From an uncultured Nitratifractor sp. (GTDB taxonomy: Bacteria; Campylobacterota; Campylobacteria; Campylobacterales; Sulfurovaceae), in assembly GCA_913054475.1 (NCBI GenBank), contig CAJXJF010000010.1, positions 1 to 40,125 on the forward strand: a stretch of DNA of 40,125 nucleotides, written 5' to 3'. The translations under genes and the position numbers were made by a program. Below the pieces are notes generated by a model, which was not told where the DNA came from, ran no database searches, and saw only the letters and a list, made by a program, of their open reading frames with translations. This document shows positions 25,836-39,707 of this stretch, piece by piece (position 1 is the stretch's first letter; the number at the start of each line of letters is the position of its first letter).

Positions 25836-25860
25836 GGCGGCGACTGAAGTCATCGAAGCT
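25836..25860. repeat. Degenerate copy of the GGCGACT palindromic repeat
   Basis: GGCGGCGACTGAAGTCATCGAAGC shares the GGCGGCGACTGAAGTC core of copy A (its plus-strand form), but the right arm is broken. It marks the start of the accessory patch just after the nos operon. The rest of 25804-26113 holds no gene that I can see. Confidence 0.5.
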
Positions 25861-26085: not shown

Positions 26086-26113
26086 TGCATATAAGCAAAA
26101 AGAAGGGGGAGAA

Positions 26114-26983
26114 ATGAAAAAGATGCTCTCTACGAGCTCGCTGGCGAAAAAACACTCCATAAGTGCAAAAGAGCTCTTTGGCTATTTTGCAAAAAACGGT
26201 TTTATTGAAAAAAGGGATGGCTCATGGCTCTTGAGCGATAAAGGAAAAGCCATAGGAGGCGAATATAGAGAGTCCAAACAGTATGGAAAATATATAGTCT
26301 GGCCCGAAAATATACAGCTGGATCTTGGAGTCAATGAAAAGTTCTTGAGCGCCACAGCCATAGGAAAACACTTCTCTCTCTCCGCAAACAAGATGAACTT
26401 CATCTTGTCGGAAATCGGCTGGATCGAGAAGGGTCTCAAAGGCTGGAAAGTCACTATTCAGGGAGAGAAACAGGGAGGAGTTCAGGCCGAAGATCCCAGA
26501 AGCGGTATTCCGTTCGTCAGATGGCCGGAAAAGATACTCGAGTCGAAAACTCTCCTCGAGACCATATCTCAGGTAAAAGGTACACAGGAGAACACCCAAG
26601 ACAAAGAAAATCCGTCACAAAAAGTGGATTTCAGAGAAAAGTTCGAAGCGAAACATCGTAGCGCCGACGGGCACTTCGTTCGTTCCAAAGCTGAAATGTT
26701 GATAGACAACTGGCTCTATATGGCTGAAATTGTGCATGCCTATGAGAGGAAGCTCCCTATAGAAGAGGATGTCTATAGCGATTTTTATATCCCGACTGGA
26801 AAGGTTTATATCGAATATTGGGGTTACGAAAACGACGAAAAATATCTTGCCAGAAAAAAGAAAAAGATAGAAATCTACAAAAAATACGGTTTCAATCTCA
26901 TCGAACTCAATGATAAGGATGTACAGAATCTGGATGATGTACTACCCAGAATGCTGCTCAAATATGGTGTACAGGCATATTGA
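26114..26983 (+). CDS. Duplicated-HTH protein with PD-(D/E)XK-type nuclease domain
   Basis: I do not recognise a named family. Residues about 5-67 and 78-141 of this 289-residue protein are repeats of one another: each opens with LSxxxxxKxxSxSA, continues with a GF/GW-IEK turn and a G-W strand, and ends WPE-N/K-I. They look like winged-helix domains of the KilA/antirepressor C-terminal type. A Gln/Lys-rich linker (145-175) leads to a C-terminal domain with RSKAEMLIDNWL (Glu194), DFYIP (Asp223), YIEYWG (Glu234, Trp236), then a Lys-rich helix and NLIELN. This order fits a PD-(D/E)XK nuclease of the DUF559-like or helicase-associated variety, with Trp where Lys is usual in E-x-K. AGAAGGGGGAG precedes the ATG. 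A stand-alone DNA-cutting or regulatory role is an inference. Confidence 0.6.
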   Translation: MKKMLSTSSLAKKHSISAKELFGYFAKNGFIEKRDGSWLLSDKGKAIGGEYRESKQYGKYIVWPENIQLDLGVNEKFLSATAIGKHFSLSANKMNFILSEIGWIEKGLKGWKVTIQGEKQGGVQAEDPRSGIPFVRWPEKILESKTLLETISQVKGTQENTQDKENPSQKVDFREKFEAKHRSADGHFVRSKAEMLIDNWLYMAEIVHAYERKLPIEEDVYSDFYIPTGKVYIEYWGYENDEKYLARKKKKIEIYKKYGFNLIELNDKDVQNLDDVLPRMLLKYGVQAY

Positions 26984-27099: not shown

Positions 27100-27117
27100 A
27101 ACGCGACTGAAATCGCA
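27100..27117. repeat. Degenerate GCGACTGAAATCGC palindrome
   Basis: AACGCGACTGAAATCGCACC is a decayed version of the GGCGACT/AGTCGCC palindrome, 30 nt before the full-length copy B. Together with copy B it fills the non-coding gap between the nuclease-like gene and the MNT gene. Confidence 0.4.
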
Positions 27118-27140: not shown

Positions 27141-27244
27141 TATGGGGCGGCGACTTTAGTCGCCGGTAAAATCTCGCATAGTGCAAGGGCTGAATTCAGC
27201 CCTTGCAGGATAGAAGCCAAACACGAAGGAGTCGGAGGCTTCAG
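27141..27244 (+). repeat. Composite palindromic repeat, copy B
   Basis: This stretch aligns end to end with the reverse complement of 1-104. The palindrome CGGCGACTTTAGTCGCCG is at 27148-27165. A second internal dyad, AAGGGCTGAATTCAGCCCTT at 27185-27204, is better preserved here than in copy A. The tail GAAGGAGTCGGAGGCTTCAG matches the A-copy end. No ORF of interest lies in the 428-base gap (26984-27411), which is made mainly of repeat-like pieces. Confidence 0.75.
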
Positions 27245-27411: not shown

Positions 27412-27726
27412 ATGAAAGCGACACGAGATGAGATACTCGCCTTTTTGCGAACGCTCAAAGTAGAATTGGTAGAGGAAGGGATAGAGGCTATCGCCCTCTT
27501 CGGAAGTTACGCAAGAGAGAAAGAGAATATCTACAGCGACATCGATATAGCAGTGAAAAAGAGGGCCGATTTCGTAGAGCGCTACGGTCCCTACGGCTAC
27601 TTCGAACTCTCACGAAAGCTCAAAGAGCGGCTTTCGCGAAGATTTGGCCGCAGAGTGGATATCTTCGACCTCGATGCCCCCTCCCCTCTCAAACGATACA
27701 TCGAAAAAGAGCTTATCTATGTCTGA
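27412..27726 (+). CDS. mntA: MNT-domain nucleotidyltransferase, MntA-type antitoxin
   Basis: This 104-residue minimal nucleotidyltransferase has the motif Gly31-Ser32-x10-Asp43-x-Asp45 (GSYAREKENIYSDIDI) and a later DIFDLD with the third acidic residue. In MNT-HEPN pairs it adenylylates the HEPN toxin on a Tyr near the catalytic motif and so neutralises it. It overlaps the HEPN gene by 8 nt. No ribosome site is seen and a -10 lies directly before the ATG, so a leaderless message is possible. Confidence 0.88.
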   Translation: MKATRDEILAFLRTLKVELVEEGIEAIALFGSYAREKENIYSDIDIAVKKRADFVERYGPYGYFELSRKLKERLSRRFGRRVDIFDLDAPSPLKRYIEKELIYV

Positions 27727-28078
27727 TACCGACAAAGCGCTGCAACGACTCGAAAAAATAGTCAAAAAAATCACTTTTATCAAGAATATTGTCGATGAGT
27801 ATGGTTCCGTTTCTCTCGCCCTCGAAGATGAATGTAAAGGGCGCGCCGCTATTTTGATGCATCTGACCTCCATTGCCGAGCAGTTCGACAAGCTTCTTCA
27901 TGCCGGAGAACTTGAGATATTGTCCCATTTCGAAAAGCAGGATATCAAAGGCAGTTACGACTTGCGCAACTATATAGCACGCGACTATGAAGGTGTCGAT
28001 CTCTATATCGTGGAGTCGGTAGTCTCCAGTCGTCTGCCTCTCATTCTACGACAGGCCCGAGAGATTCTGAAGCGATAG
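27719..28078 (+). CDS. hepT: HEPN-domain protein, HepT-type toxin with altered motif
   Basis: I start at ATG 27719 (119 residues), which overlaps the MNT gene; an in-frame ATG at 27644 would lie far inside it. The protein is a four-helix HEPN of the HepT/DUF86 type. The catalytic R-x4-6-H motif normally reads RN-x3-H-x-Y. Here it is Arg83-Asn84-Tyr-Ile-Ala-Arg88-Asp-Tyr90, with Arg in place of the His. The Tyr that MNT partners modify is kept. The RNase activity may therefore be lost or altered. The pair stands alone between repeats and a convergent gene. Confidence 0.82.
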   Translation: MSDTDKALQRLEKIVKKITFIKNIVDEYGSVSLALEDECKGRAAILMHLTSIAEQFDKLLHAGELEILSHFEKQDIKGSYDLRNYIARDYEGVDLYIVESVVSSRLPLILRQAREILKR

Positions 28079-39676: not shown

Positions 39677-39707
39677 TTCGGGGCCGCGACTAAAGTCGCC
39701 GCCCCGA
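39677..39707. repeat. Palindromic repeat GGGGCCGCGACT..AGTCGCCGCCCC
   Basis: TTCGGGGCCGCGACT and AGTCGCCGCCCCGAA form a near-perfect 15-bp dyad with a 2-nt loop and one mismatch. It is the same palindrome family as 81-98 and 27148-27165, with longer arms. The surrounding gap (39560-39763) holds no gene. Confidence 0.6.

Follow-up and report, generated by a model that had tools for sequence, protein, structure and literature searches.

Winged-helix (wH) domains joined to interchangeable nuclease domains are known from the wH-fusion modification-dependent endonucleases, such as DpnI, HhiV4I and the PLD-wH enzymes Aba4572I and CbaI, which are encoded by solitary genes (PMC11037411). Another described set consists of the I-Bth0305I, Vsr and DUF559-like (NGO0050) nucleases. 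In addition, PADLOC lists candidate families, the PDCs, which originate from a survey by guilt-by-embedding; most of them are unvalidated (PMC12988326) and untested (PMC11514479).

The protein analyzed here, P0001, is encoded by a 40,125-nucleotide stretch of DNA from an uncultured Nitratifractor sp., referred to below as the window. It resembles the wH-fusion endonucleases in combining wH-type units with a nuclease domain in a solitary gene, and differs from them in having two N-terminal units and no detectable homology to the wH of DpnI. The nuclease core fold is common to P0001 and the I-Bth0305I/Vsr/NGO0050 nucleases; in contrast to these, P0001 carries E-x-W at motif III and tandem winged helix-turn-helix (wHTH) units, and none of the PDB chains matched it in sequence, even in a profile search. 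No family above the cut-off was obtained in Pfam, NCBIfam or PDB sequence searches. The PADLOC profile PDC-S69, a listed single-gene phage defence candidate, matched the protein over its full length (1-289/289, E = 3.8e-115), with no sequence difference between the two. Judged by this match, P0001 belongs to a candidate family that is listed and uncharacterised. The PDC-S69 label itself says nothing about mechanism, partners or module relationships, and a literature search found no paper naming PDC-S69 and no report of a test.

The P0001 gene lies on the plus strand at 26114..26983, with the ATG at 26114 and the stop codon at 26981-26983, and encodes 289 amino acids. Just 5′ of the ATG, a Shine-Dalgarno-like sequence, AAGGGGGAG, strongly resembling a ribosome-binding site, was found at 26103..26111 (+). 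The N-terminal part consists of two wHTH-WPE units of about 65-70 residues each: unit 1 comprises residues 1-67 (26114..26314) and ends in W63-P-E-N-I, while unit 2 comprises residues 74-141 (26333..26536) and ends in W137-P-E-K-I. The units are homologous. Alignment of residues 1-67 with residues 74-141 yielded a BLOSUM62 score of 90, which was reached by 0/2000 shuffles, and profile-profile comparison of the two units gave a probability of 99.3 (E = 4e-20), compared to E = 0.49 for unit 1 against the C-terminal domain. The two repeats with WPE-N/K-I ends described in the initial annotation were thus confirmed. For the unit profile, the best PDB hits were designed repeat proteins, which were dismissed as chance. 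The wHTH part of unit 1 resembles KilA-C/ANT (PF03374) at 22.6 bits, below the Pfam gathering cut-off of 25.3 bits, and the unit differs from that family in its additional β-hairpin ending in WPE.

The units are followed by a variable linker (residues 146-170; 26549..26623) and by a Vsr/I-Bth0305I/DUF559-like PD-(D/E)XK nuclease domain (residues 171-289; 26624..26980). Mean pairwise identity among homologues across phyla was 78% in the nuclease domain, 43% and 54% in the units, and 24% in the linker. As judged from these alignments, the reading units vary among homologues while the nuclease domain stays constant.

An AlphaFold2 model of P0001, built on 57 homologues (pLDDT 89.8), contained two wHTH units and an α-β-β-β-α-β core. 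The pTM was 0.44, so that the model does not fix how the domains are arranged relative to one another, and linker residues 157-168 were disordered in it (pLDDT < 50). The nuclease core was composed of helix 192-203, strands 209-213, 221-226 and 231-235, helix 242-258 and strand 261-265, the order of the PD-(D/E)XK core. Unit 1 modelled alone, with the alignment rows from plasmid records left out, reached a pLDDT of 93; the isolated unit resembled many wHTH proteins over the HTH core only (TM 0.3-0.5), the WPE hairpin being extra. In Foldseek searches, the wHTH units matched MarR-type regulators and the nuclease core matched I-Bth0305I (TM 0.76 of target), NGO0050 and Vsr; the E-values were weak (best 8e-3), yet topology and residue placement agree. 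Both the model and Foldseek therefore agree with the initial proposal of a duplicated HTH joined to a PD-(D/E)XK-type domain, with wHTH folds in the N-terminal halves and a PD-(D/E)XK fold in the C-terminal part.

The best solved structure, I-Bth0305I, is an EDxHD homing endonuclease, and P0001 could accordingly be read as a stand-alone homing endonuclease that propagates the gene encoding it. However, no conserved insertion site or flanks were found among 79 loci, full-length PDC-S69 homologues were not found in viral contigs, and two wHTH units are not the usual DNA-binding modules of homing enzymes. Such an origin is scarcely probable at all and was rejected, as there is no common site.

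Conservation was evaluated in 78 homologues, which span about ten phyla. The predicted catalytic residue E194 on helix 1 (codon 26693..26695, +) was kept in 77/78, the predicted metal ligand D223 on strand 2 (26780..26782, +) in 78/78, and E234 on strand 3 in 77/78 (one D). This placement in the AlphaFold2 model is that of PD-(D/E)XK enzymes, in which acidic residues are conserved on strands 2 and 3. E234 is part of E234-Y-W236 (26813..26821, +), in which E-x-W replaces E-x-K; the motif III lysine (D/E-x-K) was not present in any of the 78 homologues, all of which carry W236 instead. The residues originally singled out as nuclease-like, Glu194, Asp223 and Glu234-x-Trp236, are thus the conserved ones. 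Several families of the PD-(D/E)XK superfamily lack the motif III lysine, and P0001 is for this reason filed under the PD-(D/E)XK fold and not under a classic D/E-x-K family. On the helix after W236, R247, K248 and K251 are nearly invariant and may substitute for the missing lysine.

An inactivated nuclease fold serving as a transcription regulator or in an antitoxin-like role, a variant of which had been suggested initially, would be consistent with the tandem wHTH and with the tryptophan at the position of the motif lysine. One such degenerate relative was found on a Photobacterium damselae plasmid (L099:5986-6876); its nuclease acidic residues are largely lost, with no equivalents of E194 and E234 recognised by eye, and it is possibly a natural dead variant. 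For P0001 itself, a dead nuclease is very unlikely, since E194, D223, E234 and W236 are nearly invariant across the homologues. The pattern of conserved residues is that of a live enzyme, and P0001 is probably a live nuclease.

A single scan yielded 117 stretches encoding relatives of P0001. The gene was present in 1/13 genomes of the genus and in 14/175 genomes of the family, and decayed copies were found in genome G003, with 25 C-terminal residues left (88% identical), and in genome G015, as a reading frame with stops. The GC content of the P0001 gene was 42.5%, compared to 48.0% for the window, and its GC3 was 0.49, compared to 0.58-0.64 in the upstream nos genes. In the tree, P0001 was placed beside Cycloclasticus (98/87), apart from an eight-row Campylobacterota clade; its closest kin are in Gammaproteobacteria. 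PDC-S69 genes are carried by plasmids too. By these distribution, composition and tree data, the P0001 gene is an accessory gene moved horizontally between very different bacteria. Other genomes of the genus contain the nos cluster and lack the P0001 gene, and the exact ends of the insertion are undefinable because the downstream flank lies elsewhere in them (about 586 kb away in genome G011).

The wHTH-WPE unit was also found on other proteins. A tblastn search with unit 1 gave matches in 426 plasmid records, 370 of them from Klebsiella, and most of the matches listed were annotated as phospholipase D (PLD) family. The full P0001 sequence matched seven filamentous Vibrio phages through the unit only. 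In all 32 viral-contig hits, and likewise in three Campylobacterota hits, the protein carried a PLD-type H-x-K motif, with the unit forming its C-terminal end or lying close to it. Two Vibrio plasmids encode a DUF2726 protein capped by the unit. In Pfam, the PLD and DUF2726 regions of these proteins are recognised, but not the unit. The PLD-family nucleases of filamentous Vibrio phages and of Klebsiella and other plasmids have the unit in common with P0001 (phrog_9329, E = 7e-12) and match PDC-S69 residues 5-69; unlike P0001, they carry a PLD catalytic domain and a single, C-terminal unit. As with PDC-S69, NERD (Acidovorax, L094) or Mrr-like (L101, L103) genes lie next to some of them. Short ORFs of 91-103 codons, at L109:1441-1713 and L112:1498-1806, consist of a wHTH-WPE-like unit alone. 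At L145:5353-6171 and similar Klebsiella loci on conjugative plasmids, the unit-bearing PLD gene adjoins genes for a thermonuclease-family and an H-NS-like protein.

The joining of one unit to several nuclease folds recalls the wH-fusion modification-dependent enzymes, PLD-wH included (PMC11037411), and P0001 is likewise a nuclease encoded alone, for which no methyltransferase partner is conserved. Both observations would suit Type IV modification-dependent restriction, in which a modified base would be recognised by the wHTH units, in the manner of DpnI-type wH domains on 6mA, and cleavage by the nuclease would take place nearby. However, neither the unit nor the whole protein showed a sequence match to DpnI in the PDB, and DpnI was absent from the best 50 structural matches. 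Moreover, the genome that contains the window encodes a Dam-type methyltransferase (contig C69:784-1605; TIGR00571, 299.7 bits, cut-off 114.85), which would make cutting at Gm6ATC self-destructive, and three other PDC-S69 carrier genomes encode one as well. A DpnI-like reader of 6mA in GATC is therefore disfavoured; a modified base other than 6mA might still be read. Taken as a whole, Type IV restriction is considered improbable.

Simple clustering of 79 loci revealed no single conserved operon partner across the PDC-S69 family, and a partner pattern emerged only when neighbours were compared by Zn-ribbon, NERD and Mrr profiles. At L002, L003, L022, L057, L058 and L074, as well as in genomes G023 and G362, a gene within two positions of PDC-S69 encodes a NERD protein, which in most cases bears a Zn ribbon of the topoisomerase type; in G015, the NERD and PDC-S69 genes are adjoining pseudogenes. 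An Mrr-like nuclease with a Zn ribbon adjoins PDC-S69 at L041 and L047, and at L007 Mrr-ZnR and PDC-S69 are fused in one uninterrupted reading frame at the start of the contig. A UvrD helicase with Zn ribbons lies directly upstream of PDC-S69 at six Methylococcales loci and on plasmid MEALZ_p, where the locus is near umuD and an SbcCD-like pair. The NERD and Mrr partners have an apparent N-terminal membrane segment.

Proteins of these Zn-ribbon, NERD, Mrr or UvrD-ZnR types accounted for 14/288 neighbours at positions ±2, compared to 2/604 at ±3 to 8. The one-sided Fisher test gave p = 6e-6, or 1e-3 with Methylococcales counted once, values that are optimistic, as the profiles were built from the same neighbours and the NERD/Mrr/UvrD-ZnR grouping was made post hoc. 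Among 60 relatives, PDC-S69 (remnants included) and a NERD protein co-occurred in 4/8 vs 4/52 genomes (p = 0.008, kinship ignored). The genome that contains the window (G000) encodes, on contig C80:188-1048 (L181), a NERD and Zn-ribbon protein of the subfamily of PDC-S69 neighbours, unlinked to P0001.

Module sharing and a recurrent Zn-ribbon partner are, as far as found, undescribed for PDC-S69; the evidence for them is correlative. A tentative and less likely reading is that wHTH-WPE is the shared targeting module of an unrecognised two-protein class, in which a reader nuclease (Vsr-like, PLD or DUF2726) would be licensed or restrained by a Zn-ribbon NERD, Mrr or UvrD protein. A NERD-ZnR integron cassette of Vibrio rotiferianus, supplied in trans, restored normal growth of a cassette-deletion strain (PMC3262767), and this cassette could be a restraining partner if the two-protein reading is true.

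The same partners bear on the possibility that P0001 is a repair or genome-hygiene nuclease acting on branched, mismatched or stalled DNA together with NERD or UvrD proteins, with defence as a side effect. The Vsr-type fold, a weak match to a Holliday-junction-resolvase family (phrog_9019, E = 3e-4), the upstream UvrD-ZnR genes with umuD and an SbcCD-like pair nearby on MEALZ_p, and the very strongly conserved nuclease domain speak for such a role, as does the situation on large secondary replicons of Vibrio (listed in the plasmid collection), where the PDC-S69 gene stands alone among housekeeping-type genes. In contrast, the gene is rare and patchy in the family and decayed in some genomes, the PDC-S69 match extends over the full length, and two wHTH units are typical of sequence reading. 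A repair function is thus regarded as rather unlikely.

In the neighbourhood of homologues, strong PADLOC hits at ±2 included PDC-S41 twice, Type I RM, a Type IV REase, SoFic, MADS and PD-T4-4_A among 219 neighbours, a count that has no matched genomic background and is not taken as general enrichment of defence genes. bSEFIR and OLD-like genes were found at +1 of some homologues. Most PDC-S69 loci have no recognisable defence neighbour. In the window, the only candidate defence genes beside P0001 are a PDC-S09-like/HEPN-like pair at 27412-28078 (+). This pair, initially described as a toxin-antitoxin pair, reads as a nucleotidyltransferase (GSYAR...SDID; PADLOC PDC-S09, E = 4.8e-15) and, overlapping it, a small HEPN-like protein, by motifs assigned by eye and, for the first gene, the PDC-S09 match. 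The HEPN-like protein has RNYIAR instead of the usual RNxxxH, the histidine being apparently lost (by eye). The repeats noted near P0001 are GCGACTGAAGTCGC-like palindromes at 25840-25853, 27103-27116 and 27150-27163; others in the window lie at 83-96 and 39686-39699. Matches of this type exceeded chance (9 vs a mean of 3.3).

The preferred reading, to which a probability of roughly 0.5 is assigned, is that P0001 is a DNA nuclease targeted by its two wHTH units, directed against foreign DNA and sometimes acting with a Zn-ribbon partner. The protein would be an accessory DNA endonuclease of the PDC-S69 family with its catalytic site intact. Its two divergent N-terminal wHTH-WPE units would bind DNA and supply specificity, and the flexible linker would present the nearly invariant Vsr/DUF559-like PD-(D/E)XK domain, so that DNA is cut. 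Metal would be bound by D223 and E234, with help from E194 and from the basic residues K248 and K251 in place of the motif lysine. Such an enzyme would hinder phage or plasmid DNA as a small restriction-like barrier, independent of a linked methyltransferase, and in some lineages would work with the NERD-ZnR, Mrr-ZnR or UvrD-ZnR protein encoded next door.

The replacement of the motif lysine by W236, the unlinked position of the NERD partner gene in the P0001 genome and the lack of a defence neighbour at most loci count against this explanation. The nuclease-domain identity across phyla is also unusually high for a role in an arms race and might indicate that the target is a conserved one in the host. 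The initial suggestion of a defence factor fits the full-length PDC-S69 match and the patchy horizontal spread, and a defence role is slightly favoured. A sequence-guided nuclease, likewise suggested initially, may be compatible with the presence of two DNA-binding-type units.

For PDC-S69, these results provide a testable mechanism, with two reading units, one nearly invariant cutter and specific residues to mutate, as well as a candidate partner in the Zn-ribbon NERD, Mrr and UvrD proteins. Through the common reading unit, the family is connected with nucleases of the PLD and DUF2726 types from hundreds of plasmids and from filamentous phages. Should this unit recognise a feature common to foreign DNA, a single biochemical finding would account for several nucleases that look unrelated.
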